Positions 11,753 through 56,733 of a stretch of DNA of 64,000 nt are shown in pieces. The notes under the pieces were generated by a model. It had not been told where the DNA came from, did no database searches, and was given only the letters and a program-made list of their open reading frames with translations. The translations under genes were made by a program, and so were the position numbers. The stretch comes from Branchiostoma lanceolatum (Eukaryota; Chordata; Leptocardii; Amphioxiformes; Branchiostomatidae), in the NCBI RefSeq assembly GCF_035083965.1, contig NC_089740.1, positions 7,375,552 to 7,439,551 of the forward strand, read 5' to 3'. The first letter of the stretch is position 1. Every line of letters begins with the position of its first letter.

Positions 11753-15553
<3,801 letters not shown>

Positions 15554-27173: not shown

Positions 27174-28744
27174 TTAGATTTTCAAACCACTTCCGCTTCC
27201 GGTATCTTTGACCTTCAGTTCCGGAAAGCCCCGACACTCGAACTTGTACATCAGGTCAGTGACCCTTTCTGCCTCCTGCAGTACCGCTTCCGTCCGCTCG
27301 AGGGTCTCGTCGATGTAGCGGTCCGGAAGTGGTGCTTCATCTTTAGAAACGATACGATTTCATTCATGAAGGTTTGACATCCAGGTAATAAGATACGCCA
27401 AAACAAAAAAAACAGTTACTCAAGCAGCCAACTAGATACAATTTTGAAATTTTCATTCAGGTGCTTGTGAGTAACTGTTTTTCACGGATAAAAGTTCACT
27501 CACTGAATTATGGGCTGATTTCGTTTTTTTTATAGAGATGAAAGGCACTGGAAAGGAAAAGAAGTCACTAAGAAATTATAATAAATAACTGTTTTTTTGT
27601 GGATACAAGTTCACTTACTGAATAATGGGTTAATTTCCTTTTTTCACAAAGATAAAGGGCCTTGGAAGGGGAAAGAAGGTCATAATAATTGTCTGTGCCT
27701 AAACCAACCAACCAACCAACCAACCAACCAACCAACCAACCAACCAACCAACCAACCAAACAACCAACCAACCAAACAACAAACCGAAAAACCAAGAAAC
27801 AAACTAACTAACAAACTAACTAACAAACAAACTAACTACCTAACTAACTAACTAACTAACTAACTAACAAATAAACGAACAACAAACAAACAAATAAATG
27901 AAATAAATAAACAGCAAATGGGGTGTTACCATCAAAGGCTTGTGTCTCATGGCGCATGCCCAGAAGACTTCTGAAGGAGTTCCAGAAGTAATCTCCCATC
28001 GCAGTGTCGACCTCAATGTCACCTGACGTCTCACAGTAGTTCAGCCAGTTACACAGCATCCCCACCCCAAGATTCACCTGTAGAAGGTAGAAACATTTTG
28101 TTATGTCATCTTATGATTCTGCTGAAAAAATGAGAATTTTTTAGCAATAAGGCTGTATAGTAAATTCCCATCGCGATTACTCCAGGGACGACTTTAAACG
28201 TAGAAAGAAAGAAAGACCAGTAAATCTAAAAAGTATTAAATACATAGATAAACAGCAGCTGCTGTAATCGTGCTATAAATAGCCATTTTCCCATGCATGG
28301 AGCTTACGTTTTAGTTGCTATATGTCTAGGCCACCCCGAGTGGTGTAGCCATGAATGAATTCCCTAGCCTAGGAATGCATCCATGCACTCTCTCGCATAA
28401 CAGCCATTGTTAATTTCAAACTTAGCCTTATGCTATACATTAAACTCCACCCCTGAGGCATCGCCAAAAAAGAAAGGATTTGGTCTCACCAGACAGCATA
28501 TGAAGACCAGGACGAATGTAGTGTAGTACAGTGGTCCCAGAACACTATCAACTCTCTTGATGTCATCCCCAAAGACGTCGCCAAACGCCCTCCCCAAGCT
28601 CAGCTCGAACAAGACGTAGGAGGTTTCCTTTAAGGCGGAGAAGCTCTTCATGTGTTTTCCAAATATCAAGATCCCACAGATGGTGTAAGACAGTAGCAGG
28701 ATCACCATGTACATCAGGAACCCAAAGGCATCACGGTACATCAA
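27174..28744 (-). CDS. Polycystin-like gene: S5, pore, S6 and C-terminal tail exons
   Basis: Exons 28490-28744, 27930-28077, 27174-27340. The first encodes S5 ([20 protein letters not shown]), a pore helix region ([19 protein letters not shown]) and the family's S6 start ([16 protein letters not shown]). The second finishes S6 and the cytoplasmic start ([16 protein letters not shown]). The last has an acidic/basic helical stretch ([19 protein letters not shown]), possibly a short coiled coil, and a stop at 27174-27176. Where polycystin-2 proteins carry LGD in the filter, this one reads LGR, so cation selection like PKD2 should not be assumed. Confidence 0.85.
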
Positions 28745-34700: not shown

Positions 34701-37700
34701 TTACTGCGTTTCTTCATCGGGAACTGCCTTCAGGGTCCTTATTGTTCTACAGTCTTCTTTGTTAGAGGACAGCCAGGTGAAACATGGGAAGAGGAACCTG
34801 AAGAGAAACAGGTAGCAAATAAATGTCTTCGTCTGTATATTTCTTGGACAAACTTATGCCTCCCTGAAATATTTAGAGTTCTTTAGAATGAGAAAAATAT
34901 AACACAACCATGTCTATTTCACACATTACATGTTCCACTCTCGGGCACATGTCCTCACTTCCTACCAGCCTGCTGAAAAAAATTAGACCCAGCTAGGCCA
35001 GCTCAACCTTCGCATCCTGCCAGTCTTAGGTTACAATTCACCCAGGAGCAACTTGGTCCCGGAACAGTGGGGACAAACTTGCTCGCACACACCAAGACAA
35101 ACAAACAAACATACCGAAAGCAATACCTCAATTTTCGTGAAGGTGATGAGCCTTCATGTTTACGAAGGTAATAAGATTGTGATGGTAATGATTTGTAATT
35201 TGTAGGTTCATGCCTGCAATACTTAGTAACTAGAGTTCGGCGACCTCATACCTCCATGAAATATTTAAAGCTTTGGTAGATTTTATGCAAATGACTTACA
35301 CGTTTGCATAATTTATGGGTAGTGATAGTTCCGTTCATCTAACGCTGTTTGTGCGTTCAGATTACTACTATAGATTATCGTATTCACCTCTGTGATGTCT
35401 GTATGTCCCAGACAGTGATGTTGTCTATGAAGAGTGACTCCATGGCGCCGTTCCCGGAGCTGTCGTGCCAGACCTGTACAGACTGGAGCTTGCCAATGGA
35501 GGCCGGTGTCGTCATGATGTGGTACGTGTCATTACCTCTGGCTAGGATCTGAGAAAATTCAGGAACAAGAACGTGTATTTTGTTATGCTTTCTCTTCTGA
35601 CTTGTTTAGTTATAGGTCATAGTCAAAGTTAATTGTACAATGTAAGGCAAAGCTACATGTTGATAATCTTAAGTTTCTATTTTACGGTTTGTTTTTGACA
35701 TGGAGGTATAGATATAACCCTTCCAAACGCATTTCCAGCCGGGTTTGGAAGGGTTGAAGATGGCATGAAGAAGCCATTTCTCCTTGTCGTTTCGGGCTTT
35801 CCTAAAATACAGATTTATTCCTGGATAGCCAGTACAATGACAATCATTCTTATACTTCTTACCGAGCCAGCGGGGTTGAGAGTGACCATGGCTGTCCTGC
35901 CCTCTGACCCTGTGATCATCAGCCCGACTACAGACGCCGTGCCGGCATCAGGCTGTGTTCCCGTACGGACAGACACGACGTAGACGTAGTCCGCACCGGG
36001 AACCTCTGACGGGATCGTGGAGACTTTGGGAACAACAGCGTTGTAGACGTTCGATTTCGAAGCTTGTCCAATGGCAAAGCCGTCTGCCACTGCGTTGCTT
36101 CTAGAAGTCTGATTCTGATGATAAGAAATGAGATCTTCAGAGAGCATTATAGACAATCAACGACGGAAAAATACGACTTGTATTTTTGCGGCAAAGGAAA
36201 ATAATGGAGGAGGAGGAGGGATGGCAGATACTAAACAAGGTCACATACCAGGGTGTCAAAAACTGACCTTGACCTTCGTCTTTCAAAGACGTACCAACAC
36301 ACCAAATGTCATTATAATCCATCCAGAGATTCCTGACTACAAGCTCTGAAAAACAGACAGACACGCACACAGACACGCCAAAAACTATACCTCCATTTTC
36401 ATGTCGGTAATAAAGTATTGCAAACATTCGTATCGCGTGAAGCTTTAAGTATAACAATTAAGTTAATTAACATACTTTGATGTTTGAACGTAGTATCAGT
36501 AGTTGGGCCATCAGAAACATCATCCACATCGCTATGATGGTTGCAAATACGGTAGAGTTTGAGGACAACTTCTCAAAGTTGCTGCCCAGGTTGGTGAAGT
36601 CCACAAAATTTGGAATCGGCAGAAAAGACGACCCCAGTATTACCCTGGAGCTTTTCCCATCGCTGTTTACGGCCATGTCACATGAGCACTGTGTGGTCGC
36701 CTCGTCAGTTTGGGTACCGACCTGCAGCATAGAATCAATTGAAAGTTGTTATTCGTAGATTCTTGAGAAACTCAACGATGATTGATTGAAACATAGTATC
36801 AATATTCCACTGTTAGATGTAAATACTTAACGTACATACCGAAGTTAGCTGTGAGTCTGGAAGATTCGACTCTGAATTTGAATATGCTGACCAAACAAAC
36901 AAACAAACAAACAAGTAATATTGCTTTGCCTCAGAGACGATGATACGTGTACACATAGAACGCAGTAACTTCCAACTTAGAGCCTGTGTTTAGTTTATTC
37001 TACCTGATAAACCAGCTAATTAATATAAATTAGTAACCTTGCAGCGGTGGTCGTTCCACGCCTGGTTCTCCATCTCCCACATCAGACAGGAGACTGCAGC
37101 AGTCTGCAGAGTGAATCCGGATGGGTTGCTATGACGACCAGGAGGGGGCGTGGTCTGGGAGCCTCTAGCTGCTGACGTCAGCAGTCGTCGGAAGCCACTG
37201 TCAGGTGCATCTCTACCTGATATCACATACACATAAGGAAAATATCAATATCTGCTTTTGTCATTCTTTCAAACTTGAAAGGCAAAGATTAAGCGGGCGA
37301 CCTCACATTGAGAAAGAAGGTTGATGCTTTTTCATTTAGCTTTTTCTTATAAATGCCGAAATATGAATTTGATTGCTGAAATCTAAAAACATACTGACAG
37401 TGGAAAAACTTTGTCTACCTTTCTTCTTCACGCCAACTATGACCCAGCCATGTTCCTTCTGTACCTCCAGAGTGAATATAATTGTGAAGTTGGAGTAAAC
37501 TAGGCCATATGGCATCGGAAAGCCGTCGATATCAATGAACTCAGGAGGTTTGACAGTCGTCGTGTAGTCGTATTCTTCCTCGGTTGGGAAGTCGTGAAAC
37601 CGAACGTACACCTGCAGCTGTGTGTCGACGTCATCGACTGAGAATTTGAACAATGGCACCTGGCCCTGGTGGTCCGTGTATAACGCATGGTACGTCATGT

Positions 37701-43700: not shown

Positions 43701-46700
43701 ACTCACCAAGTGCACAGTTGAACCTGAAGTCCCCGGGAGCATGCATGCTCTTGTAACCAGCTTGTATAATTCTGTCAGTGAATGGTTCAGGATCTGTCCA
43801 GCTCATAAAGGGTTCGATATCTCCATCCCTTCCCACACCAATACTTCCACCTCTTGACCCGCAAATCCAGAACCTCCGAAATTCGTCCGCTGATGTGATA
43901 TCTGCAAATTAGAAAACGATAGTTGGCAACAAATTGCGCACTCGATCATGCAAAGGTAGTTGGGAATATTGTTGCTAGTTCAACTTGTCATCGCAGCGTT
44001 CTGTTTTGTTTATCTTCCGGTGTACTGCTGGGTTCCAAGAAGGTACCCCCGGTGCTCGCACGATTAGCTCACGATGTCTATTTGTTACAGGGTCCCGCGT
44101 TGATTTTAAGGCCGGGTTAAAATGATTCTGGGTCCCGACCGGGCCTAATAATAGCCCGGCAGCCGCAGGGTGTCCCACGTAGGTGTCATGCCCGAAAGTG
44201 CCAAAACTAGTCCGTGAACTACCCGGCAGGGGCCGTTTTCCAGAGACCGAAGCTTAAACCTTCCGTTTCTCACCTGGCGTACTTTGACTTGCGAAGACAG
44301 TGATGTCATTAGCCACGACTTTCGCAATGTTGGACTCGGATGATGACCGGATAAAGATGCGATACCCGCCATCGGTCAGCGTGTCCAGACGGATAACGCA
44401 GTACCCAGTGGTGTTGAGCTTGACCTCGAAGATGAAGGGTGAGGTGATGACCATAGGAATGTCAAATGACACGGTATATAGATCTACACCATCACGGTGC
44501 CTCTTGATCGGACAGGGATCTGGGTTGGAAGAACAAAAACATTTCTGACATATGTTCCTTTAGAGGTATATTAGATCATGTGTTGAACCCATCACACGAA
44601 GGAAGCAGATGTGTGTCGCTCGAAGAAGCTAAGAAGAAAAGACTTGCTTAGAGAAAAAATTGATTATTTTGGAAAACATGGTAGAACTGACGTTACCCTT
44701 GATCTCGTGACAAGGAAAAACTTTCGTACATCATTAAACATTAGTCCATACATCAGCCATTGGTATGTTTTGCACCCCCCTCCCCAAATATGCCAACCTA
44801 TCAAATGTGAGTGCTAAGCCATGGTTGATGTTAATGAACAATGAAAAAGGCACGAGTCAACAAAAGTTTTAAAACCAAAGGGGCCAAACGGAAATATATG
44901 CAGACATATTGGCTGTGAAAGCAATGGAAATCTATTTTAGGTGACAGCAAAAATTTCACTGTAGGAAACAACGCACTAAACTACACACCTGTCCAGCTAG
45001 AAATATGAATATAAAAAAAGGCCTACCAGTACAGTTATGTTCGTCTCCGTCTAGAACAAACCCTTCACTACAGGAACAGTTGTAACCTCCTACAGTGTTG
45101 GTACAGGTCTGGTTACAACCGCCGTTCTGACTGGTGCACTCGTCAATGTCTACAGATAAGACAAAGCGTGAACTGAGATCATTTATTTTTCAATACCTCA
45201 TTGTTTTCCTCAATGACAGACATTTCAAATGATATACAGTATATGTAAAATCAAAGTGATGAAGTTCACGTCAATATGGCTGAAATAACATTCTAGGCAT
45301 TGATATACACAATCCTTCTCTCAACCGGGACGGGGGGACGGGGGTCGGTACCGACTTCCGACGAACTTTGACCCAGTGCTGACGTCACACGTGCGAAATT
45401 TTGTGTCTACAGCTGTGTCAGATAGCTGATGAAGGGATTCGATCGAAAATTCCGGAGAGTGAATTTTTTTGAGCTGGAGAACAGTTTATTTCTCATCATA
45501 ATATAAATAAATGTTTTATTTGGCGTTGGGTAGACGAGCATAAATATATATTGACCATAGTTGTCTTTAGATATGAAAGTTTAGTTTAAGTAAATCATCT
45601 TATATCGTATCAAGTGCTTCAGGCTTTCATACGTAAAATCATCTTTATCTAGATGTTATTATTTGTACCTTCGCAGAAAAGAGCCGTCTCCGTCCACAGC
45701 CCATCTGGACCACACATTCTGGTTATGACATCACCGGAAATGACGTGATATCCTGGAGAACATGGGTAGGTGCAGTTCTCCCCCAGTAGATAAGGACAGT
45801 CGCACACGGGCCCGGTAGTGTTGGCTTGGGTGGGAGGGTCAAAACACACTCCCGGAAATCCATCTGAGGAAAAACATACAAGTGAATTTGGATGAGCGAG
45901 AGCACATTATCATAGGGACAGATAGTTTCCTTCAACATTGAAGAATCTTTCTCTTTGTAGAGTAAAAGGACTAAGCAGTAATCCTCAATTGAGGTGAAGC
46001 ATAATGTTCTTTCAAGTAGCTTTCTGGTAGGGCAGTGTGGCTTCGCTACGGCTCGCGTTTTTGGCCAAGCATGCTGGGTCACCCCTACACTTCTCGACAA
46101 GTGTGTTGGGTTCTTTTACGTGCAGATATTTGACAGCGTTTGAAGCTACCTCATACACGGGGCCGCCGACTTTACGTCACCCTCCAAAATGATGAATGCA
46201 ATCCCTTACAACATGTCCGAGCTGGAGTCGACCCTAGGATCGGCCAGTATAAGTCAATAACTAAACGCTTGGAAGACTTGTCAAGGAATGCTAGCCCTCA
46301 CCTAGTGCACAGTTGAACAGAAAGTCTCCGGCATCATCTGTAGTCCGATAGCCGACTTTACTGATGTTAGTGAGTGGTTGAGGGTCTGTTCCGATCATGA
46401 AGGGTTCAACCTCTCCACCCCTGCCTACACCAACACTTCCGCCTTTCGACCAGCAGATCCAGAACCTCCGAAACTCGTCAGCTGATGTCATATCTGTGCA
46501 TTAAATTACAAAACAAGAGTAAGTAACAAACATGACACTAAAAAATGTAGGTGTTATGAAGCCAAGTTTGCAGACACAGAAGCTGAACAAATCTACCACA
46601 GTCATGAATAATGCTGAGGGCGAGTACAAGCTTAGTCACGTTTGGGACCGCGTTCGTCTCGCTGCAGCGCCAACTAGCGCCACGTATAGAACTGTTCAAA

Positions 46701-49700
46701 ACCATAGAAGAATGTCGGAATACGGATATTTCATAACCATGCACGTTACCTAAGGCGCTGTGTGTTGCAAGGGTGTAACTGAAAAGTCTCGCGCTACTAG
46801 ACTGGCCAGACGCGATCTTCACACGATAGCCATCGCCATCATCCGTGTCAAGTCTGATGATGACGTTTCCGGTGGTGTTGACCTTGACCTCGAAGATGAA
46901 GGGCGACGAGGTGATCTCAGGAAGGTCCCACGCCAGGTTAGAGTCATTGCCCACGTGCTTTGGTGTGGAACAGGATGCTAGGTAAGGATGAAAAAGCACG
47001 TCTGATTTCACATGTTTTTGTAACGATAAACTCTTGGTGTTCGCACGAGTAGCTCACGGCGTCTATTTGTTACCGGGTCCAGGGTTGATTTTAAGTCCGA
47101 GTTAAAGTCACCCCGGGGCCCGGCCGTGCCCCAAAATAGCCCGGTAGCCGCAGGGTGTCCCAAGGGGACACGTAGGGGGTCCCAAAAACTGAAAAAAAAA
47201 CATCCCTTGAACTAAACGGCGGTGTCACTTTTTTCAATTGAATGATGACCGAAGCATAAGACTGGATTGTGTGGTATTTTCTTAACATGCTCGAGGTATA
47301 TATGGCTCCCCTCAAACATGGGACATCCAAGAGAACGTCTCTAACATGACAGAAGCTATTTTTTTCATTATGTTATTAGAAATATTTTGGAATCCTTCGT
47401 ACAGGTTCGTACAACGTCGAAATCACTATTTGGTCGTGTCAGTCTATTCTATTTTTGCATGGTGGGCAGTATCAATAACAGGTGAATGATGTTTGACAGC
47501 ATCATCCTGGTGTTTCTTTTGTCCCCACTATGCACTCGAAAAGCAATATCAAGAGTCATTATTTTTAAAATGAGACACACCCAACCCGCAAATTGATAGC
47601 GGCAAACATGCCTTATTTATACATATAAAGCACGCTGCAGATAAAGTTGTTTACAATTATGATTTCTGAAAAAAAAAGAGATACTGGGCCACATATAGTT
47701 GTTGACCTATGGTATATACCTGTTTAGAGAACACGTGATTATGTTTTATGACTTTAAAAAAATGGTGAATGTATCGTTACCTCTGACCTGTTAACGAGAA
47801 GAAAATGTCGTACCTCATAAGTCAATACATCAGTCACGGGTATATATGTTTTGAACACAACCAAAATATCGTAACATATCAAGTTATCTGTAGTATATAT
47901 ATATATATATATGGGACTATGGGTTATATGTGCATATTACACACCATAGCAGTAATTTAAATACGATTATTTCCTGTAGTACTAGTGTTTTGAATTTAAG
48001 CTCAATTTTGCTGCGTTTAAAACAAGAGAAAACAAGAGAAGTACGTTTATGGCATGATCAATTGCTACACTACTTTACTTTGGTCGAGCTCCCACTCGAA
48101 CCAAACTTGAAAGCCTCCTCCACTCCACCCTATCTTCCATCAGGGACTGGATTCCCTTCACTTCAGTAAGGTTGGCATCGGCTCTTAGTGTATCGATGAA
48201 GGTGCCTTTTGGTCTTCCACGCCTTTTTTTCCCTTTTGTAGGCTCCCATAACTCTAGTCTGGAGGCTATGATATCAGGTGTATTTGCAGCCAGTGCCACA
48301 GGCAGGTACCCAATGTGCAGGGTAATGAGGCTGTTTAACGTGTTCGAGGCACCTCCTCGAGCACGGGACCCCCGTTTTACGTCCCTCCCGGAAGACGATT
48401 TCGTGGAAAGCTTCGTGAGGCTACAGCAATCCGGACGTCCTTGGTTGGTCTCCCATCCAAGCACTGTCCGGACCGCGCGTTGCTTAACTTCCGAGATCGA
48501 GGGATCGGGTGTATCCAACGCGCCACGCGGCCGTAGCTATCAGGGTGTCTAATGCAATGAGCAGCTAATTTCAATCTTATCATATCAATATATTCAATCT
48601 TCTTGCTCTTATTTTCTCAGAGACTGGTGTTAGGTCTTGATATAGCTGTTCATTGGTGAGTTTTTGCTCCCAGGAGATGTTAAGATGTCAATTGCTACAA
48701 TCTATATCTTATTTTCTTTCGATGTAAAATTCCATGTTGTTTACTACGAAAATAAGCAGAGACCTTGCTCAAACAAAAGGGCCGGGGGCGCTAGCCTGTC
48801 CTCTCTCCTTCTATAGAAAACCTCCTCGCTCAAACCAAGGTCTCCAATCGATGACCAAAGCAGTCGACTAGTCTTAATATCATAAAAGGGTTATTGTATG
48901 ATAATGATAGAACCCACCTTTTACACTTGATACACAGATAAGAATGATACAGCAGGTGAACATGATGACAACACCGTGCCGTGAGGCTATCCTTTTAACC
49001 GGTCTATCCTTCAGAGTCTACGGGAAGAGACTCAAGTGGTCCCGTGTGAATGTTGTCTCTGATCCGGTCAAAGTCTTTTTCCGACGTTAAATCGTACGGC
49101 AAAGTGCAAAGACAAAACCTTCCTCGGATAAACACCTTTTATGGACCTATGACTCCGGCTATCCAAAGATCTATATCAAAGGATCGGTTTTGGGCAACTC
49201 CTTAGCAACCATCCTGACAACAAGAAAACATGGCCTGAACCATGAAATGTTTAATGAACTATTCATTTCGAAAAAAAGGCTAAATAGATGTTTATTATCG
49301 TGAATGGTTAATGAACATTTTTTCTTACCTAGAAAACAACAGTTTTTTTTACGATATTTTTTCAGTCTTTTTTTTCTTAGTATTTCTGTCATGCTGCCAA
49401 AATATCATAATTACACCTTTCGTCTCTGGGCGTTGGCTACATTTTGGGATGAATTACTATGAAGTTGTCATAACATGGCTGGAACCTGTAGTTGCTGAAG
49501 AATATGGTCGGCTCTAACGTTTTCATTACAATGAGTGGCCTATGAAATATTCGAGCAACAACGCAAAGGGGCCATACATGTAGGCTGCTTTATATTATAG
49601 CGTCATTTTTCGTAGAACCTTTTTACATGTTTTCAACTATGAAATGCGTGGTTTTGACTGTTTTGAGTCATCTTTACGTCTTTAAAATCCTTATAATCTA

Positions 49701-52700
49701 TCAAATTCCTTGTTTTGGCACCAACTCTCGTGCGCTCTCGCCCGACTGTGCTCTCGCGGGATGACATTTCAAAATGGCGCTCGTTTCAAAATGGCGCTCG
49801 TAAATAAAATGAGTCTATTGATCTAAAACGTTCCAGCAACACCAAATAATAAGTTTCTATGTATATATGAATAAACCATCACTTTGTACGCAAGTTGTAA
49901 TTTTTCATAGCTTGATGTCATGACTTACATGTACCCGTGCAGTTATGTCCGTCGAAGTCCAGTACAAACCCCTCAGTACAGGAACAGTTGTAACCTCCTA
50001 CAGTGTTGGTACAGGTCTGACTGCACCCGCCATTCAGAATGGTGCACTCGTTAATGTCTGAAGAAAAAACAACAACATCAGTTTGTTTAAAGACTGGAAG
50101 GAGGGGATGTCGTTTACGATTTGCCTGATTATTTTGAGATGTCTCATTTTACAGCTACAGATGTTCAATGTAAAATACAATTTTTAGAAAGTGATAACTG
50201 GTGTCTATGCGGATAACAGAAGTAATCTCTTAGAAGATATTCTGTACCTTGGCAGAAAAGATCCGTTTCCGTCCAAATCCCGTTTGCCGTGCATGTTCTG
50301 GTTATAACATCACCCGAAATGACGTGATGTCCCGGGGAACATGGGTAGGTGCAGTTCTCTCCCAGCAGATAGGGGCAGTCACAAACGGGACCGGTAGTGT
50401 TGGCTTGGGTCGGTGGGTCAAAACACACCCCTGGGAATCCGTCTGAAGAAAAACATACAAGTGAGTTCGGATGCGCGTTATGATATGTTCATGGATACAG
50501 AGGTTTGTTTTCATCAATTTGAAGCGTTGTCTATAACCTGTTGCTTCATATACCCAACCATTCGCAAGAACTTAACGTTTCCTACTAATGTTAGTCGGAG
50601 AAATGAAGTACAATCAAACCTCACCTTGTGTGCAGTTAAACAGCAAGTCTCCAGGAACGTCTCCAATCCTGTAGCCGACTCGACCGATACCAGCGACAGG
50701 CTGAGGGTCAGTCCAGCTTATGAATGGCTCCCCCTCCCCACTCCTGCCCACACCAACACTTCCTCCTCTTGACCAGCAAATCCAGAACCTCCGAAACTCT
50801 TCATCTGAGGTTAAATCTGCGCATTACAAAGTAAGAGATCTGACACACTATGAAACAAAAAGATATTGGGAAGCCAGGGTCAAAGACAGAGAGGCTGTCA
50901 GAAAAGCTACTCCAGTCATGAACAGTGGAGAGAAGGGATACACACTTAGTCACGTTTGTCTCGCTGCAGTGCCACATAGCGGCGGGAAAAAGTACGGCTC
51001 TTAGAAAGAAAGCATAACGCCCCCCTCTCACTTGATCCGCGGCACGCTGGCGTACGTCGCTGCGGCCGGTCGAATTGACAAAGGACTCAACAGATCTCAT
51101 CGACAAAAAACGAATCTTTTTGTGTGTTTTGTTGTATTTTTGGTCATACTTGTACGTTTTGAATGCTATTCCCATTGTCAAGTCAAGGGCAATACAAATC
51201 CAGTTTAGGACGCAGCGACGCCGCCAGCGTGCCGCGGGTCCAGTGAGAGGGGGGGGGGGGGGGCTTAAGGGCTTCCAAAACGGTGAAAAGTATGAACGGC
51301 ATTCACTCTGCGAAAGAACTCCAATAACAAGGAACTGGGATATCTTTCATTAAAACAAAAGTGAAATCCAAAATTGTATCGCATCATTCCAAACAGAACA
51401 TGAAATCGTATATCAGGATCGCCGTATTACCTGGTGTCCAGGCTGTTGCCTTGGTGTTAATAGCACCATGGCTAACTCTTCCAAGCCTGGACTGTCCAGA
51501 CTTGATCATAAAACGATATCCGTTGTTATCCGGCCTATCTACGCGGATCTCGCAGAGACCACTGGTGTTGACCTTGACCTCAAAGATGAATGGTGATGAG
51601 GTGACCTCAGGGAGGTCACGGGTCAACAAGCCTGAAGCTTCCTGGTGCTTTGGAGTCGAACAGGATGCTGGGTATAGAAAGCAAGTAAAAATGAATTGAA
51701 ATTTATGTCATAATCACTTTATCGAAACAAAGATAACAGCTTTTATGGTCATTGAGTCCTTTGGTCGATTCCTTGAAACCCTCACACCGACTTATATTCC
51801 ACCCTTTGAATACGAACGACATCTCTATATTATACACCCTATTTTAGAAAAGCACCCTGCGTTTTAGCCTTAGAAAACGCAATGGTTTTCATAGAGTCAT
51901 AGAACATTTTCAGTTAGGCTCCTTTTTTTAATTATTTTTTGCTTTGATAATGTAAGAAAAATAAATGACTCAACGGTGACTCGTAATACGGCTGCTGCCA
52001 AACCGTGATGTATTTGAAGTTTTTCGACAATTTTTTGTTTGCAGTTTCGAAAAAAGCAACGACAGTTTTTATAGTGTAGAGGCTATTGACCTCTTTGGAG
52101 ATTATGACACTCTTCCATCCACCATGGAGCTGTTTTGAGCACACCAAAAAACTGTCACGTTGCAACTGTACGTGACGAACCAGATATCAGCCATGGAGTA
52201 CAATGAAATCGTAATTGCCGGACACGGATACCCCCCCCCCCTCCCCCCCTGCCGAAAGTAGACGACGGCGCCGGCCAGAACGGCAGTAAAGGAGGCTGAT
52301 CATGACTGTTTCGAGCTATCTCACGTCGTCAAAATCCTCCCTTTGGCACCAACTCACGCTCGCTCTCGCCCGACTGTGCTCTCGCGGGAGGACATTTCAG
52401 AATGGCGCTCGTTTCAAAATGGCGCTCGTAAATAAAATGAATCTATTGATCTAAAACGTTCCAGAAACACCAAGTACTAAGTTTTATATATCAACTTGTT
52501 AATAAACCATCACTTTGTACGCAAGTGGTAATTTTTTATAAATTGATGTCATGACTTACATGTGCCGGTACAGTTATGTCCGTCTAAGTCGAGTACGAAC
52601 CCTTCAGTACAGGAACAGTTGTAACTCCCTATTGTGTTTGTGCAGGTCTGGCTGCAGCCGCCATTCAGAGTGGTGCACTCGTTAATGTCTGAAGAAAAGA

Positions 52701-55700
52701 ACATCAGTTTGTTTAAAGACGGGATGTCGTTTACGATTTCCTTGGTTATTTTGAGACGTCTCATTTTACAGCTCCAAATGTTCAATGTAAAATATGATTT
52801 TTTCTAAAGCGATAACAGGTGTTTTTCTTTATGTGGAGAACACAAAAGATCTACTCTGAACGTATCTTTTACCTTCGCAGAAAAGATCCGTTTCCGTCCA
52901 AATCCCGTTTGCCATGCATTTTCTGGTTATGACATCACCGGAAATGACGTGATATCCCGGGGAACATGGGTAGGTGCAGTTCTCCCCCAGCAGATAAGGA
53001 CAGTCGCACACGGGCCCGGTAGTGTTGGCTTGGGTCGGAGGGTCAAAACACACTCCTTGAAATCCATCTGAGGAAAAACATACAAGTGAGTTCGGATGCG
53101 CGTTATGATATGTTAAATGTCTACAGAGATTATTTTTCACTAATTTGAAGCGTTGTCTATTACCTGTTGCTTCATATACCGAACCATTCGCAAAAACTTA
53201 ACGTTTCCTACTAATAATGTTAGTCGGAGAAATGAAGACTCTAGTACAATCAAGCCTCACCTTGTGTGCAGTTAAACAGCAAGTCTCCAGGAACGTTTCC
53301 AATCCTGTAGCCGACTCGATTGATGCCAGCGACAGGCTGAGGGTCAGTCCAGCTCATGAAGGGCTCCGTCTCTCCACCCCTGCCCACAGCAACACTCCCT
53401 CCACTTGACCAGCAAATCCAGAACCTCCGAAACTCTTGATCTGAGGTTAAATCTGCGCAGTACAAAATGAGAGTTCGTAACAGATCTGACACACATAAAA
53501 ACAAAACAATATTGGGAAGCCAAGGTCAAAGACAGACAGGCTGTGTGGGATAAAAAATCTACTCTAGTGATAAAACGTGAAGGGGGAATACAAGCTTAGT
53601 CACGTTTGTGACCGCATTCGTCTCTCTGTAGCGCTACCTAGCGGCGGGAAATAGTACTGCTCTCACGAACAAAGCATAAGGGCTTCCCAAACGGTGGAAA
53701 GTAAGAACAGCATTCACTCTGCAAAATAATTTCAACAACAAGGAACTGGGATATCTTTCATTGAAAAAAGCGGTGCTCAAAATGTAATCATATAATTTCA
53801 AACATTATAAGAAATGGTAAATTAGCATTGTCGTATTACCTGGTGTATAGCCTGTTGCCATGGTTTCAACACCAAGGGCGATTCTTGAAATACTGGACTG
53901 GCCAGACCTGATCATTACACGATAACCATTGTTATCCGGCCTGTCAAGGCGGATCGTGCAGATCCCACTGGTGTTGACCTTGACCTCAAAGATAAATGGT
54001 GATGAGGTGACCTCAGGGAGGTCATAGGTCAACGAGACAGAAGCTTCCTGGTGCTTTGGAGTCGAGCAGGATGCTGGGTAGAGATAACATGTAAAAAAAA
54101 AACTTTGAAATTTATCTCAAATTTGCTTTTTCAAAACAAAGATAACAGCTTTTTTTGGTCATTGAGTCATTTTGCTGATTTAAACCCTCACACCGGGCCC
54201 CGAGTCTCCACCCTGTGGAACCATGGAACTCGATTCATATGGCGAAGCACTGGGGTCGTTAACCGATTTCTCCACAAGGGCTGATTTATATAGTTATTAA
54301 TTTCAGTCTGTTTGACATGACAAGGGCACTCAATTAGCCATAAACGAATCATACACTATAGGAGCAACTACCTATGGTTTAATGGACATAGTTTTATAGT
54401 CAAATATTTTACAAAGTAAGCGAAGAGTAAAGACTGATTTTTGGTTCTGTTTGTGAGAGGTATGAAGGCCACAAGGGTTAACGCCCTGGCACAAGGTCAT
54501 CTAGATCATATGCTGATGATACCGGTCAGTGGAAGCAGCGGGAGGTCCTAGTGGAGAGCTTTTGGAGCGTTTGCCGCCTCCTTTCATGTTCCATCAGTCA
54601 CAAGGATGTGTCCTTCGACACATAGAAACGCATGCACGAGAATGTTTTGATGATGTTTTCAGAGCAGGACACATTGTAGTTTTGTGTGTAAAGTTTTCTA
54701 TTTTTCATTACGTCAATCTTAATGAAGCTTTTTTGTGAATAGCTTCATTTGCTTGGCAAGTTTTATGAAAGTAAAGTCATTTTTCAACATAAAGTTGTTG
54801 TTTTTCGTCCCGTCGAGTTGACGTAACGGTCGGGGTATTTGGACAGGTCCTGGGTTCGTATCCCCTGACATGCCCCCTTGACGTTGTGCCCTTGGGAAGT
54901 CCACTTTACACGACTTTCCTCACTTTACTTAGGTGGAAATGATCATGAGCACCTAGCTTTGGTTGGGAACGTCCCACGGATAGGACATTAAATGGAGGTA
55001 CCGTGTTTGAGGAGAGCCATACCTCGAGCACGTTAAAGAACCCGACACACTCATCGAAAAGGATATGGGTCTTTTCCGGAGTGAGTAGGTGAAATAAATC
55101 TGCCAAAATATGCAGCTTGTGCCCCCTGTTTAGCCGTTATTAATGTCACAGTTACATGATTAGTTGCTTTGCAGAGGGCGGCTCGTAGGGAGCGCCTACA
55201 ACATAAATATCCAACTCAAGAAAATATCATACATGTTAGTGGATCGGGTCATTGCATAGCTACATGCAGCTATCAAAAATATGTGAGAAAGAAACGTAGA
55301 CTCTTTATGAATCATGCTTATTCTTTTGTGATTATTTTCGAACCATTGAACAGGCCATTTTATGGTTTACGACGCTGAAACTCATACTATTTCTCCGTTA
55401 TGGCTTGAGGCAAACTATGAATAAATGATAAGCTATGACTGATCGTCGCTTGACCACACCCTAACGACATCTCTATTTAAAGTCTACTTAAAGGAGAAAG
55501 GCGCCCTGCCTTTTGGCTATAGAAGGCGCATTTTTTTCTTTACCTTTTCAGTTATCCTACGCTTTTTTTTGCTTTGATAAGAAAACGAAATGATACAATG
55601 GTGGCGCGTAAGACGGTTGCTTCCAAACCGTGATGTATTTGAAGTTTCATCTTCTTTAGGATGTAGAGGCCAGTGACCCCTTTTCAGGGAGATTATGGCA

Positions 55701-56733
55701 CCCCTTATAATGTCATTTATCCATTATGGAGCTGTTTTGAACACACCCACAAATTGTCACGTTGGCCTGTACGTGACGAACTAGATATCAGCAATGGGGT
55801 ACTATGATATCATTTGAAGTTTCAAGTATTTTGTTTTGTCAGCTTAAAAAAAAGAGACAGCAACATTTTTTTATATCATGGAAGCTAATGACCTCTTTGG
55901 AGAGTATGACACTCCTCATCATGTCATCCATCCATCATGGAGCTGTTTTGAACACACCCAATTGTCACGTTGCAACAGTACGTGACGAACTATATATCAG
56001 CAATGGGGTACTATGAAGGCTTCGGTGTATGTTACATTACTTGTTGTATGGATTGTTTTAACATCATTCTTGTTTTGCTGGAGTCTGGTAGTTGGGGAAT
56101 ATCTTACTGCAATTTACAAAGTATACAAGTCTACGGCGAACGACGCTAGAAGAAAGAAAACAAAGACGCCTTTCCATTTCTGATGTAGGGTGATATGCAA
56201 ATGTACAAGTACATAATTATTAAGAAGTAAAAATACATGGCATGATGCGTTAAATGGAAATTTTAAACCATACATCTGTATCGATCAGCAAGATCCTTAC
56301 TTTAATCTAGAAAAGGTCGGAACAACTTCAGTTTTTGCTATATAGAACTGCAGCTCCAGAATAATCATTTCTTAGAGTTGTTATATACATGTATACACAA
56401 TTCTTCATCATAAAAACTGTAGAAATCGTAACATTTTATAGTTTGAAACAGCACCTAAAAATTCGGATGACTAAAGTAAAGGTTAAAGAGTTTTGTTTTT
56501 AGTAGTTGCTTGATTTAACTAAATGTAGATGCTCGTTCCTGCGTGCGATGATGGCATGTTACGCCGAATAGTGGTTACTTTGTGTTAATAATACACATTA
56601 TATTGATGAAGATGATTCTTTTTATGCCAAATGATATTAGATCATTACGTTAGAGCTTACCTTTCACACGCAATGCACAGGTAAGAATGATACAACAGGT
56701 GAGGTTGAAGACAAAACCACGACGCGAAGTCAT
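27174..56733 (-). CDS. Polycystin-1-like receptor/channel with five FAMeT-Sushi-EGF modules
   Basis: A 44-exon model on the minus strand, 8817 bp, 2938 aa; every junction is GT-AG and in phase. Order with rough residues: signal peptide 1-24; five [Methyltransf_FA - Sushi - EGF] modules 25-1269; two further EGFs to 1351; Thr/Ser-rich mucin-like stretch to 1465; GAIN-like region to about 1860; GPS 1861-1895; TM1 about 1932-1955; PLAT 1961-2095; TM2-TM11 with a TOP-type luminal domain and pore about 2127-2860; C-terminal helix. GPS + PLAT + 11 TM defines the polycystin-1 family, and the S5-pore-S6 block is of PKD-channel type. Family role: large membrane receptor/channel subunit, often ciliary and often paired with a polycystin-2. 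No REJ, PKD-repeat or lectin domain is seen; the FAMeT modules replace them. A second possible first exon at 48918-48963 would give about 2428 aa. One merged gene is the simplest reading; two genes is the alternative. Confidence 0.85.
27701..27880. repeat. (CCAA)n then (CTAA)n microsatellite
   Basis: About 80 bp of CCAA repeat followed by about 100 bp of AACTA and ACAA variants, in the last intron of the polycystin-like gene. The Gly-Trp-Leu-Val frame across it is a repeat artefact. Confidence 0.95.
29035..31183 (-). CDS. Polycystin-like gene: TOP domain to S4 exons
   Basis: Exons 31009-31183, 30405-30549, 29634-30127, 29035-29195. They encode the extracellular TOP (polycystin) domain between the sixth and seventh membrane segments ([55 protein letters not shown]-like [12 protein letters not shown]), then S2 ([20 protein letters not shown]), S3 ([20 protein letters not shown]) and S4 ([18 protein letters not shown]). 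The TOP domain carries several N-glycosylation sequons. Exon phases 1, 2, 1 and 0 join without a break. Confidence 0.85.
29455..29597. repeat. Short imperfect inverted repeat (MITE-like) in an intron
   Basis: GGGTAAGGTAAAGTTTGCAG at about 29473-29492 pairs with CTGCAAACTTTACCTATACC at 29562-29581, with weaker pairing outside. No second copy was found in the window, so a transposon origin is only a guess. Confidence 0.4.
30735..30958 (+). repeat. Dispersed repeat, copy 2
   Basis: Matches 8890-9110: ATGGTATACATAGGAAAATA, TATCAAAGAATGTCTAGAGG, CATACTTTGTACCTTGTAGA and GCAATAAAGTTATCGGTATC. It is intronic in the polycystin-like gene and antisense to it. Confidence 0.65.
31505..32294 (+). mobile_element. 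Harbinger-like DNA transposon derivative with long TIRs and TAA target duplication
   Basis: The 790 bp element begins GACCCCGTTCACACTCATTT and ends with its exact reverse complement. The inverted repeats run for about 70 bp and are built around ATCGCGATTG palindromes. Both sides are flanked by TAA (31502-31504 and 32295-32297), the 3-bp target duplication typical of PIF/Harbinger. Inside, from the ATG at 31893, a frame reads [20 protein letters not shown] then [17 protein letters not shown] and a stop at 32049. This is the start of the Myb/SANT-like DNA-binding protein of Harbinger elements. A likely continuation ([10 protein letters not shown]) follows out of register at about 32100. No transposase is present, so it is non-autonomous. 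Confidence 0.85.
32471..32515. repeat. Perfect 16-bp-stem hairpin in an intron
   Basis: ATCGTAATGGCATCTT, a 4-base loop TGAG, then AAGATGCCATTACGAT. Pairing extends three more base pairs outward through one G-T wobble. The total is too short for a typical microRNA precursor. Confidence 0.6.
32631..34797 (-). CDS. Polycystin-like gene: TM2 to sixth membrane segment
   Basis: Exons 34705-34797, 33780-34302, 33177-33327, 32631-32848. Membrane segments seen: [71 protein letters not shown] and [15 protein letters not shown], then [20 protein letters not shown]. The segment [19 protein letters not shown] just after PLAT and the motif AMWYG are typical of polycystin-1-family proteins. The loop with [18 protein letters not shown] is cytoplasmic and basic. 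Confidence 0.85.
33493..33651. mobile_element. 159-bp MITE with ~60-bp inverted ends
   Basis: The left end reads CCGGGCTGAGGTTTTCACTT, then GTGGGCGTTGCCTCTAACCA and AGCTGTCATCCAATCAGAGA. The reverse complement of the right end gives CCGGGCTGAGGATTACACTT, TTAGGCGTGGCCTCTAACGA and AGCTGTCAGCCAATCAAAGA. The arms make up most of the element. It lies in an intron of the polycystin-like gene. Only one copy is in this window. Confidence 0.7.
35388..36114 (-). CDS. Polycystin-like gene: PLAT domain exons
   Basis: Exons 35863-36114 (or 36108, by alternative in-phase acceptors) and 35388-35548. [37 protein letters not shown], then [18 protein letters not shown] and [12 protein letters not shown] show the PLAT/LH2 beta-sandwich with its hallmark VWHD motif. 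In polycystins this domain sits just inside the membrane after TM1 and binds lipid or protein partners. The order of TM1 before and TM2 after confirms the polycystin-1 topology. Confidence 0.88.
36476..39174 (-). CDS. Polycystin-like gene: GAIN-like region, GPS and TM1 exons
   Basis: Exons 38978-39174, 38371-38595, 37419-37968, 37038-37216, 36476-36721. The 550-bp exon and its neighbours fit the GAIN region: helical [17 protein letters not shown], then beta-rich segments with several N-glycosylation sites. The GPS has its cysteine/tryptophan frame, [16 protein letters not shown] then CSC. Where the cleavage triplet HLT/S belongs, this reads MAV after CSCD. TM1 follows ([20 protein letters not shown]). 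The splice from 37038 directly to 36721 keeps the GPS intact, so no exon is placed between them. Confidence 0.82.
39315..40016 (-). CDS. Polycystin-like gene: mucin-like Thr/Ser-rich linker exons
   Basis: Exons 39831-40016, 39517-39671, 39315-39402. The first two are dense in Thr, Ser and Pro (for example [20 protein letters not shown] and [15 protein letters not shown]), so a stiff, O-glycosylated stalk between the EGFs and the GAIN region is likely. The third is a short helix ([15 protein letters not shown]). Confidence 0.75.
40184..40864 (-). CDS. Polycystin-like gene: three EGF exons
   Basis: Exons 40742-40864, 40478-40600 and 40184-40306, each 123 bp and phase 1-1. The first ([17 protein letters not shown]) completes module 5. 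The next two start [12 protein letters not shown] and [12 protein letters not shown] and have the calcium-binding EGF signature and six cysteines. Equal length and phase show simple exon duplication. Confidence 0.9.
41250..42518 (-). CDS. Polycystin-like gene: module 5 (FAMeT + Sushi)
   Basis: Exons 42291-42518 and 41674-41862 encode a FAMeT-type domain ([56 protein letters not shown]). Exon 41250-41444 encodes the Sushi-like domain ([20 protein letters not shown]). Of the five modules this one is the most diverged, so it is probably the oldest. Its EGF is the exon at 40742-40864. Confidence 0.85.
42592..42812. mobile_element. MITE family 'TTGGTGTCC', copy 2
   Basis: The left end is GTCGCCATGTTGGTGTCC then TAATTTGCA. 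The reversed right end is GTCGCCATTCTGGTGTGC then GTATTTGCA. Same family as 7446-7645. It lies in an intron of the polycystin-like gene, about 65 bp from an EGF exon. Confidence 0.7.
42878..44519 (-). CDS. Polycystin-like gene: module 4 (FAMeT + Sushi + EGF)
   Basis: Exons 44274-44519 and 43707-43901 (FAMeT halves: [40 protein letters not shown]), 43356-43550 (Sushi: [20 protein letters not shown]), 42878-43000 ([19 protein letters not shown]). All are phase 1-1. The intron between the FAMeT halves holds a TTGATTTTAA element (43995-44255). Confidence 0.9.
43995..44255 (+). mobile_element. Dispersed element 'TTGATTTTAA', copy 2
   Basis: GATGTCTATTTGTTACAGGG, GCGTTGATTTTAAGGC, GGGTTAAAATGATTCTGGG, GCAGCCGCAGGGTGTCCCAC and CCGTGAACTA. 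It ends about 20 bp before a FAMeT exon. Confidence 0.65.
45027..46977 (-). CDS. Polycystin-like gene: module 3 (FAMeT + Sushi + EGF)
   Basis: Exons 46750-46977 and 46302-46493 (FAMe[53 protein letters not shown]), 45669-45863 (Sushi), 45027-45149 ([19 protein letters not shown]). The pattern [19 protein letters not shown] matches the Pfam Methyltransf_FA (FAMeT) signature as I know it. This is the first module of the short isoform that would start at 48963. Confidence 0.88.
46020..46250. mobile_element. SINE-like remnant in module 3 intron
   Basis: TTCTCGACAAGTGTGTTGGG then TTCTTTTACGTG, ACACGGGGCCGCCGACTTTA and GAGTCGACCCTAGGATC resemble the tail segments of the tRNA-type SINEs at 54800 and 58250 (TTATCGAAAA and CCACCACACTT regions). 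It is diverged, so the family assignment is tentative. Confidence 0.4.
47035..47245 (+). mobile_element. Dispersed element 'TTGATTTTAA', copy 3
   Basis: GCGTCTATTTGTTACCGGGT, GGTTGATTTTAAGTCC, GAGTTAAAGTCACCCCGGGG, GCCGCAGGGTGTCCCAAGGG and GAACTAAACGGCGG. It is intronic in the long polycystin transcript. The next 700 bp (47250-47940) show no gene or clear repeat, apart from a TA microsatellite near 47890. Confidence 0.65.
48045..48700 (-). mobile_element. LINE ORF2 C-terminus (RTE/CR1-like), broken, hosting a SINE
   Basis: On the minus strand: [20 protein letters not shown], then after a frameshift [13 protein letters not shown]. The SINE then interrupts it. It resumes as [35 protein letters not shown] and [10 protein letters not shown]. 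The HC.RHP, LWEP..GKR.RGRP and DR..WR motifs are a common C-terminal signature of LINE reverse transcriptases. It is a pseudogene fragment with at least one frameshift plus the SINE insertion. Confidence 0.78.
48282..48538 (-). mobile_element. 5S rRNA-derived SINE with target-site duplication
   Basis: On the minus strand the first 120 bases (48538 to 48419) follow 5S rRNA: GCTACGGCC start, CCTCGATCTCGGAAGTTAAG, GCTTGGATGGGAGACC (box C of the internal promoter) and GCTGTAGCC end. A tail follows with GGTCCCGTGCTCGAGGAGG, CCTCGAACACGTTAAA and so on, resembling the tail of the tRNA-type SINEs here. It is flanked by ATCAGGTGT (48273-48281) and ATCAGGGTGT (48539-48548), a near-perfect target duplication. 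The head diverges from true 5S in the arms. Confidence 0.85.
48918..48963 (-). CDS. Candidate alternative first exon (second signal peptide) of the polycystin-like gene
   Basis: ATG at 48963 on the minus strand gives [15 protein letters not shown], then a phase-1 donor (AAAAG|GTGGGT). It is paralogous to the first exon at 56661-56733 (the shared run is [16 protein letters not shown] there). Upstream, the position matching that exon's ATG is ATA here, so the start would shift to the internal Met, which still leaves a good signal peptide. Its phase fits the next exon (46977), giving a three-module protein of about 2428 aa. The long transcript would skip it. Confidence 0.55.
49929..51667 (-). 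CDS. Polycystin-like gene: module 2 (FAMeT + Sushi + EGF)
   Basis: Exons 51431-51667 and 50625-50816 (FAMe[41 protein letters not shown]), 50248-50442 (Sushi: [20 protein letters not shown]), 49929-50057 ([19 protein letters not shown]). Exons and introns are very close to module 1. For example, the intron after the Sushi acceptor shares GAGTTCGGATGCGCGTTATG. The EGF donor at 49928 could splice on to 46977 in phase. Confidence 0.88.
51020..51256. mobile_element. MITE 'CCGCGGCACGCTGGCG' with ~45-bp inverted ends
   Basis: The left end is CCCCCCTCTCACTTGATCCG then CGGCACGCTGGCGTACGTCG. The reversed right end is CCCCCCTCTCACTGGACCCG then CGGCACGCTGGCGGCGTCGC. It is intronic, between the FAMeT halves of module 2. 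Module 1's matching intron has no clear copy, so the insertion followed the module duplication. A half copy is at 61995-62135. Confidence 0.75.
52215..52298. mobile_element. One-ended remnant of MITE family 'GGCTTTCTGGCCGG'
   Basis: GGCGCCGGCCAGAACGGCAG then TAAAGGAGGCT matches the right end of 58738-58878 and 16747-16888. A C-rich run replaces the left half. Confidence 0.45.
52560..54073 (-). CDS. Polycystin-like gene: module 1 (FAMeT + Sushi + EGF)
   Basis: Exons 53840-54073 and 53261-53452 (FAMe[41 protein letters not shown]), 52873-53067 (Sushi: [20 protein letters not shown]), 52560-52688 ([19 protein letters not shown]). All exons are phase 1-1, so whole modules can be added or lost without a frameshift. 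The Sushi exon is nearly identical to those of modules 2 and 3, pointing to recent duplication or gene conversion. Confidence 0.88.
54800..55105 (+). mobile_element. tRNA-derived SINE, copy 1
   Basis: Near 54820-54870: GACGTAACGGTCGGGGTATT (weak A box), then GGGTTCGTATCCC (B box). The shared body follows: TTGACGTTGTGCCC, CACTTTACACGACTTTCCTC, GAGCACCTAGCTTTGGTTGG, GATAGGACATTAAATGGAGG, GAGCACGTTAAAGAACCC. It lies in a roughly 1.25 kb stretch (54195-55450) that splits the otherwise duplicated DNA upstream of module 1. Confidence 0.7.
55456..56020. repeat. Tandem copies of the module upstream region
   Basis: 55456-55800 matches 51800-52205 (TTTTGCTTTGATAA, CCAAACCGTGATGTATTTGAAG, CATGGAGCTGTTTTGA, GTACGTGACGAACTAGATAT). 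A second, partial copy at 55801-56020 repeats GAGCTGTTTTGAACACACCC and CGTGACGAACTATATATCAG. So this intron DNA was duplicated with the modules and once more locally. Confidence 0.7.
56661..56733 (-). CDS. First coding exon of the polycystin-like gene (signal peptide)
   Basis: [20 protein letters not shown] then LRVK, a classical signal peptide, ending at a phase-1 donor (GTGAAAG|GTAAGC). It joins the module 1 exon at 54073 to give KASCSTPKH. The start is the first in-frame ATG. The upstream 900 bp show no clear promoter. Confidence 0.75.

Follow-up and report, generated by a model that had tools for sequence, protein, structure and literature searches.

The stretch of Branchiostoma lanceolatum DNA considered here (64,000 nucleotides of contig NC_089740.1; hereafter the window) carries on its minus strand a gene in which the membrane-spanning half of a polycystin-1-like protein is preceded by an array of repeated domains. 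In the final spliced model, the gene runs from an ATG at position 56733 to a stop codon at 27176-27174, and its 44 coding exons specify 2940 amino acids with 0 internal stops. The encoded order is a signal peptide, five cassettes (M1 to M5) of a FAMeT (Methyltransf_FA, PF12248), a Sushi, and an EGF_CA domain, two further EGF domains, a threonine-rich stretch, a GAIN-like region, a PLAT domain, a TOP domain, and a polycystin channel (Table 1). Each cassette is composed of four exons, two for FAMeT and one each for Sushi and EGF_CA. An earlier reading, made from the letters and their open reading frames (the sequence-only reading), had placed the module array and the polycystin half in one gene, which is confirmed by the open 44-exon model and its Pfam domains in order. 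The order and extent given there also stand, whereas its exact length of 2938 amino acids does not.

Open pieces of the modules had been found in order on the minus strand before exon borders were set. The borders were placed by simple scoring of GT and AG sites, using approximate matrices, and were then corrected against homologs, those of the C-terminal exons against four database proteins (handles P0001, P0002, P0004, and P0122). For one border each of three cassette exons (M1 FAMeT, M2 Sushi, and M3 EGF), a better-scoring splice site was set aside for the site common to the other modules. GT-AG borders and phase 1-1 are found in each of the 20 module exons and in the two additional EGF exons; these 22 of 22 exons are shuffling-competent. 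Five copies of four exons in one order, frame, and phase are not a product of chance. When 121 homologous proteins were compared with the window by tblastn, 5020 of the 5021 matches shared over 20 bases with a draft-model exon, and the sole match outside (48990-48916) is a second exon resembling a signal peptide (SP2). The same search found no F5/8C exons hidden in introns of the window.

Pfam domains were assigned by hmmscan of an earlier, 3013-residue draft of the conceptual protein, in which residues 1-1351 are the same as in the final model. The drafts behind several analyses, including this one, read a short intron (39516-39403) as coding, and the earliest also had border errors between 38974 and 30405 that were later corrected; the ectodomain is the same in all of them. 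PF12248 was detected in five stretches (E = 7.6e-69), Sushi in five, and EGF_CA in seven, which bears out the fivefold repetition of a three-domain cassette described in the sequence-only reading. A PF12248 search had been named beforehand as a possible refutation of the FAMeT signature proposed for the first part of the cassette; in single modules, PF12248 exceeds its cut-off of 24.2 bits in 5 of 5 cases (43.3 to 58.6 bits), as does Sushi its cut-off of 20.7 (21.2 to 27.7 bits). The Sushi stretches also match HRM (PF02793), with 38.5 bits summed over the five (cut-off 26.2), and in single modules only two HRM matches are listed, both under the cut-off. No PKD repeat, REJ, C-type lectin, LRR, or F5/8C domain was found at E <= 1, in agreement with the earlier description of an ectodomain devoid of PKD repeats, REJ, and lectin. 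The first 1352 residues contain 32 N-glycosylation sequons.

Table 1. Positions in the window of the gene, its parts, and the second signal-peptide-like exon
Feature	Position	Strand	Exons and basis
Entire conceptual gene	27174..56733	-	Splice-site scoring and homolog support
Exon 1, signal peptide SP1 (ends in phase 1)	56661..56733	-	59% to P0001 residues 1-27
Cassette M1	52560..54073	-	FAMeT 54073-53840, 53452-53261; Sushi 53067-52873; EGF_CA 52688-52560
Cassette M2	49929..51667	-	FAMeT 51667-51431, 50816-50625; Sushi 50442-50248; EGF_CA 50057-49929
Second signal-peptide-like exon SP2	48892..48993	-	In the M2-M3 intron; over 102 nt, 72% identical in DNA to the SP1 exon
Cassette M3	45027..46977	-	FAMeT 46977-46750, 46493-46302; Sushi 45863-45669; EGF_CA 45149-45027
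Cassette M4	42878..44519	-	FAMeT 44519-44274, 43901-43707; Sushi 43550-43356; EGF_CA 43000-42878
Cassette M5	40742..42518	-	FAMeT 42518-42291, 41862-41674; Sushi 41444-41250; EGF-like 40864-40742
Two extra EGF_CA exons	40184..40600	-	40600-40478, 40306-40184; EGF-EGF-EGF-Thr-rich order also in B. floridae P0004
Thr/Ser-rich linker exons	39517..40016	-	40016-39831, 39671-39517; alignment with P0004 and P0008 over the junction of EGF and linker
GAIN-like region, degenerate GPS (CSCDMA for HL(T/S)), first transmembrane segment	36476..39402	-	Pfam, homolog alignment
PLAT exons	35388..36114	-	36114-35863, 35548-35388; Pfam and human polycystin-1 6a70_B by sequence
Transmembrane segments 2-5, TOP/polycystin domain, S1-S6 channel, C-terminal helix	27174..34797	-	Pfam, structure-sequence matches, hydropathy

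The polycystin half

By sequence, the C-terminal half is akin to polycystin-1 and polycystin-2, as had been claimed for polycystin-1. Pfam detects PKD_channel (E = 2.4e-29), Polycystin_dom (the TOP domain; E = 4.1e-8), and, after the first transmembrane segment (TM1), PLAT (E = 3.2e-13). Polycystin-2 structures are matched by sequence (E 9e-24), and human polycystin-1 (6a70_B) is matched over PLAT and TM2 (E 9e-23). Hydropathy gives 10 transmembrane segments after the GPS; the eleventh, TM2, is sub-threshold and was placed by eye. Human PKD1L2, PKD1L3, and PKD1 share with the predicted protein a GAIN-like region, PLAT, apparently 11 transmembrane segments, TOP, the polycystin channel, and a C-terminal helix. 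They differ from it in the head, which here is FAMeT-Sushi-EGF with no PKD repeats, REJ, C-type lectin, or SUEL listed (human heads according to an excerpt of PMC1934368), and in the GPS tripeptide, which is lost here.

A GPS had likewise been reported from the sequence alone. There is a GAIN-like region at this place, but the GPS itself is degenerate: it scores 16.3 bits, under the Pfam cut-off of 22.5, and reads CSCDMA without the cleavage tripeptide HL(T/S). The corresponding residues are CTCDMT in the seven relatives whose models include the GPS exon, and HL(T/S) is missing from 8 of 8 sequences (P0007 and P0124, which resemble each other here, may represent a single gene), while four further models are without the exon. 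The GAIN domain is, judging from these residues, probably not self-cleaved. The missing tripeptide is no bar to membership in the PKD1 family, because PKD1L1 and PKDREJ are also without it and are reported to be uncleaved (PMC9672506, in excerpt). Human PKD1L3, for its part, has no REJ, yet is counted in the polycystin-1 family in the passage available from PMC1934368.

The filter region reads LGRAFGDVF, with a four-residue insertion, where polycystin-2 has LGD; close relatives have LGRPF(V/A/D)(G/D)VFADD. Given this difference from polycystin-2, the polycystin chain may shape or gate a pore instead of forming a standard filter.

Relatives and history of the head

The protein searches reached only proteins between 0.55 and 1.75 times as long as the query and sharing 5-residue words with it, and distant FAMeT-polycystins may therefore exist in other phyla. 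With the full-length draft as query, words in its first 500 residues gave 7970 candidates, of which 480 passed, the best 120 being mostly fibrillins matched via their EGF domains; among these 120 matches listed of the 480, seven have PF12248, all from Branchiostoma, and five of the seven also have PF08016. When the M3 FAMeT was the scored region, 8 of 344 candidates passed, all of them from Branchiostoma and five with PF08016. A query from PLAT to the C-terminus passed 18 of 4325 candidates, 15 from Branchiostoma and seven with PF12248. Several of the B. floridae models may be alleles, or split or fused models, of fewer genes.

FAMeT-polycystins are thus already known as uncharacterised database proteins of Branchiostoma, namely P0001 (B. 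lanceolatum), P0003 (B. belcheri), and P0004/C3YTK2, P0005/C3ZGE4, and P0008/C3ZGE9 (B. floridae). They have the same FAMeT family as the window gene, closely similar Sushi and EGF exons and, in the better models, the GAIN-like region, PLAT, and channel; P0001 also has a very similar signal peptide. Unlike the window gene, with its five FAMeTs and no F5/8C, these five proteins combine F5/8C (discoidin) repeats with one or two complete FAMeTs, as detected with profiles of the window's own domains. In precomputed Pfam annotation, C-type lectin and SUEL take their place in P0002, and P0006 has F5/8C and C-type lectin with no FAMeT. P0007 has four FAMeTs, but appears to be a fused model. Five FAMeT-Sushi-EGF cassettes without F5/8C occur in none of the inspected Branchiostoma models. 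The earlier remark that the cassette is not known as a standard polycystin ectodomain holds for this five-cassette head among the models inspected, but not for the pairing of FAMeT with a polycystin as such.

FAMeT-polycystin is named in no title or abstract opening among the polycystin/amphioxus and FAMeT papers listed by the literature searches. Term searches found no literature that joins farnesoic acid O-methyltransferase with polycystin, and no mention of polycystin or farnesoic in the available portions of PMC12373286, PMC4284660, and PMC4967905. New here are the five-cassette head without F5/8C, a galectin-like fold predicted for FAMeT, and the absence of the GPS tripeptide across the family.

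Two relatives provide independent support, itself from predicted models, for a single protein. In B. floridae P0004, the membrane-proximal order is the same as in the window (FAMeT-Sushi-EGF-EGF-EGF-Thr-rich-GAIN), with 138 of 271 aligned residues identical across the border, and in B. lanceolatum P0001 the signal peptide, FAMeT cassettes, and channel are joined in one model. The best stretches of the C-terminal half are 63-69% identical to nine Branchiostoma relatives (50-60% for the second pieces of P0004-P0006), whereas eight of these relatives are 73-83% identical to the ninth, P0001, in their best stretches and 65-77% in second pieces. From this divergence, the window gene would be either another lancelet lineage or an old paralog. 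In a tree of 19 FAMeT rows, M1-M5 are unplaced outside a supported nine-row clade of FAMeTs with longer inserts, and the M4 and M5 branches are long; the tree omits P0010's two partial FAMeTs and a P0001 piece that falls under the threshold, and the 18-row alignment A1 also leaves out one near-copy in P0007. The Sushi sequences are too short for a resolved tree.

Outside the lancelets, the sea urchin SpREJ proteins are comparable to the window gene in representing an expansion of the PKD1 family in deuterostomes, with heads that vary and are partly of lectin type (PMC1934368, in excerpt); they are defined by REJ, which was not found in the window protein at E <= 1. FAMeT also occurs in other multidomain animal proteins, the sea star footprint proteins (Sfp) and CPAMD8, accompanied by EGF in Sfp3, Sfp4a, and Sfp7, but the passages at hand describe secreted or thioester proteins with no channel (PMC9382459, PMC9363628). 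In addition, a polycystin of the crinoid Anneissia japonica (P0129) has F5/8C (PF00754), REJ (PF02010), and a PKD repeat, and the pairing of F5/8C with a polycystin is therefore found beyond lancelets. The B. floridae model P0124 contains a divergent FAMeT after the channel half (residues 1600-1715), and FN3 in the same protein; it is probably a fused neighbouring gene and suggests a second FAMeT type near FAMeT-polycystin genes.

At the 5' end, SP2 lies between M2 and M3. Its encoded protein is 68% identical to the P0001 signal peptide, as against 59% for SP1 (tblastn). M1 and M2 are recent copies of each other, spaced about 2.4-2.7 kb with introns included, and the 5' end was therefore duplicated more than once. 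The simplest history begins with an SP-M3-M4-M5-channel gene, of which the 5' end was duplicated; the new copy brought M1, which then doubled to M2. Dispersed short repeats, 83-87% identical, lie in or beside introns of different cassettes (44051-44177 with 47036-47162; 46617-46679 with 53581-53643), and are possibly pieces of mobile elements that aided the cassette duplications. Within the M2-M3 intron near SP2, a long open stretch (48536-48081, minus strand) resembles a retrotransposon remnant by eye and has no Pfam match at E <= 0.001.

The FAMeT domain and the proposed receptor

The function of FAMeT is called unclear or unknown in the passages available from PMC10015273 and PMC9382459. 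A structure model of the domain is all-beta, and the predicted fold is a beta-sandwich of the galectin/concanavalin type; a prediction for the whole cassette (pLDDT 55) was set aside from the fold search. Beyond galectins, Foldseek matched CBM66, neurexin LNS domains, and the receptor-binding domains of bacterial neurotoxins. Galectins, CBM66, and neurexin LNS are like FAMeT in predicted overall fold and unlike it in sequence (6-13% identity among the matches listed). Neurexins and the neurotoxin domains have only the sandwich fold in common with FAMeT. Compared with PDB sequences, FAMeT had no match at E <= 1, and a term search found no literature pairing it with galectin. The modelled fold lends support to the earlier suggestion of a ligand- or carbohydrate-binding sandwich. 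It also stands against a farnesoic acid-methylating enzyme within a hormone-making or hormone-sensing receptor, an idea that rests only on the Pfam name and is scarcely credible.

Amino-acid change between modules is greater in FAMeT than in the stalk. M1 and M2 are 80% identical in this domain, and differ there by 35.5 nonsynonymous and 14.5 synonymous differences, compared with 9 and 23 in Sushi plus EGF (Fisher p = 1.2e-4 on rounded counts). The M1-M2 ratio of nonsynonymous to synonymous divergence (dN/dS) is 0.73 in both FAMeT exons, 0.12 in Sushi, and 0.06 in EGF, and dN is higher in both FAMeT exons than in Sushi and EGF in 7 of 7 module pairs computed. Within FAMeT, a 20-codon stretch at the end of the first exon has proportions of nonsynonymous and synonymous differences of 0.33 and 0.07 between M1 and M2 (p = 0.05 only, for a stretch chosen post hoc). 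It maps to strands 6-7 of the model and their loop (residues 59-78). This loop has the highest mean entropy over the five modules of the elements tabulated (1.91 bits), followed by strand 2 (1.78 bits), while strands 3, 8, and 9 are almost invariant. If the galectin plan holds, the strand 6-7 hairpin would presumably lie on the sugar-binding sheet of galectins.

Judged by its sequence, the protein most likely serves a polycystin channel as a multivalent recognition subunit. Phase 1-1 cassettes, shuffled as exons and duplicated in tandem ahead of a constant channel half, would have built the ectodomain. Each FAMeT would bind a glycan or glycoprotein, and the Sushi and EGF_CA domains would form a glycosylated, calcium-stiffened stalk that spaces the five heads for avidity, with amino-acid change carried by the heads more than by the stalk. 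As GAIN is probably not self-cleaved, binding or tension at the head could be transmitted through one chain, from GAIN to PLAT to TOP to the channel, which may be built with a polycystin-2-type subunit, the kind of partner used by the polycystin-1 family members that this channel half resembles. There is precedent in polycystin-1, the lectin domain of which is needed for activation of its channel (PMC7728438, in excerpt). This full reading, a cell-surface polycystin-1-like subunit with the five-FAMeT array as its ligand-binding head, we hold to be evenly poised between right and wrong.

Several observations weigh against it. The polycystin-2 LGD filter is not clearly kept, making pore function uncertain. 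The FAMeT model is of middling confidence, with 0 residues at pLDDT 90, and rests on close relatives, and the Foldseek superpositions are loose (root-mean-square deviations of 4.0-9.0 A). The galectin sugar-binding motif was not apparent in FAMeT on inspection by eye, and a common fold alone is no demonstration of sugar binding. Only M1-M2 gives a clear dN/dS contrast, and older pairs give a smaller one: for M3-M4 and M1-M4, Sushi stands at 0.34 and 0.40 against 0.23-0.46 for FAMeT, owing to a low Sushi dS that gene conversion might explain, and M4-M5 and M1-M5 are close to saturation. SP2 may point to an alternative promoter, and lancelet architectures have a record of prediction artefacts, such as a false PKD_channel extension of B. 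belcheri chordin (PMC6071037, in excerpt).

The last two points lead to readings of their own. Two transcription units or alternative promoters would make SP2-M3-M4-M5-channel the receptor, and leave SP1-M1-M2 as a separate secreted protein of two cassettes, an isoform extended upstream, or a duplicate of the 5' end without function. The recent M1/M2 duplication agrees with this, as does SP2, which has 72% DNA identity to SP1 and, as protein, matches the P0001 leader more closely than SP1 does. SP2, however, has ATA at the codon aligned with the homologs' start, and an internal ATG leaves only a short leader. The phase-1 donor of M2 is good (5.2) and the M3 acceptor (2.6) equals those of M1 and M2, so M2-M3 splicing requires no special assumption. 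We regard this division as doubtful while granting it an appreciable share of probability: the open model joins modules and channel in one protein as first read, but SP2 allows two transcripts. That the gene is an artefact of assembly or modelling, or decayed, is very improbable. Lancelet domain architectures are often mispredicted (PMC6071037, PMC4967905, both in excerpt), but here 44 exons are open without a stop, the cassette and EGF exons agree in phase throughout, and the M1-M2 dN/dS is low in the stalk.

Other readings accept the receptor and differ on its use. If it recognised gametes in the manner of sea urchin REJ receptors, its array of FAMeTs would bind egg-coat glycans and open a sperm calcium channel, with sexual selection driving FAMeT change. 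The faster change of FAMeT than stalk between M1 and M2 would fit, and the lectin domains of sea urchin REJ relatives are under positive selection with a probable role in gamete recognition, according to an excerpt of PMC1934368; on the other hand, no REJ domain was found, and immunity or ciliary sensing would yield the same pattern. This use is unlikely. A shed agonist is less likely still: the head would be cut off and would then act on polycystin channels in soluble form. Such a role has been proposed for the N-terminus of polycystin-1, of which a soluble fragment with the lectin domain activates channels (PMC7728438, in excerpt). With the self-cleavage tripeptide absent, a different protease has to be assumed.

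Wider proposal and neighbouring genes

Taken with its relatives, the multivalent receptor channel suggests a broader proposal, made tentatively and with the balance somewhat against its holding in every part. Lancelets would have a multi-gene set of 'interchangeable-head' polycystins, in which a constant GAIN-PLAT-channel half follows phase 1-1 cassettes (F5/8C, FAMeT, C-type lectin, SUEL, Sushi, and EGF) shuffled and amplified gene by gene. FAMeT would be a galectin-fold lectin with one hairpin under diversifying selection, and the window gene would stand at the far end of the set: a single-chain, uncleavable receptor channel with a pentavalent FAMeT array, serving to recognise gametes, microbes, or surface glycans. 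Domain innovation in lancelets by phase 1-1 exon shuffling is disputed, being presented as real in the excerpts of PMC4284660 and for the most part as annotation error in those of PMC6071037; to this dispute the locus contributes a concrete, base-level case. A fold (the galectin-like sandwich) and a recognition role are proposed for the misleadingly named FAMeT domain. Moreover, a polycystin receptor channel with repeated ligand heads and a GAIN that is probably uncut is a natural test of the need for a freed tethered agonist in polycystin activation.

The polycystin gene seems to lie within a cluster of Cys-loop receptor genes. Pieces of nicotinic-receptor-like channels flank it on the plus strand (3470-4153, 14126-14749, 15056-15547, and 62328-62987) and on the minus strand (6521-6976); Pfam finds Neur_chan_LBD in three (E 5e-28 to 9e-31) and Neur_chan_memb in five of the nine open reading frames scanned. 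A long open stretch at 19504-19974 (plus strand), resembling a retrotransposon remnant by eye, has no Pfam match at E <= 0.001. A fragment of a DNase-I-like gene (18287-17796, minus strand) matches Exo_endo_phos (E 2e-7), and possibly belongs with 21152-20904 on the same strand, which has no Pfam match.
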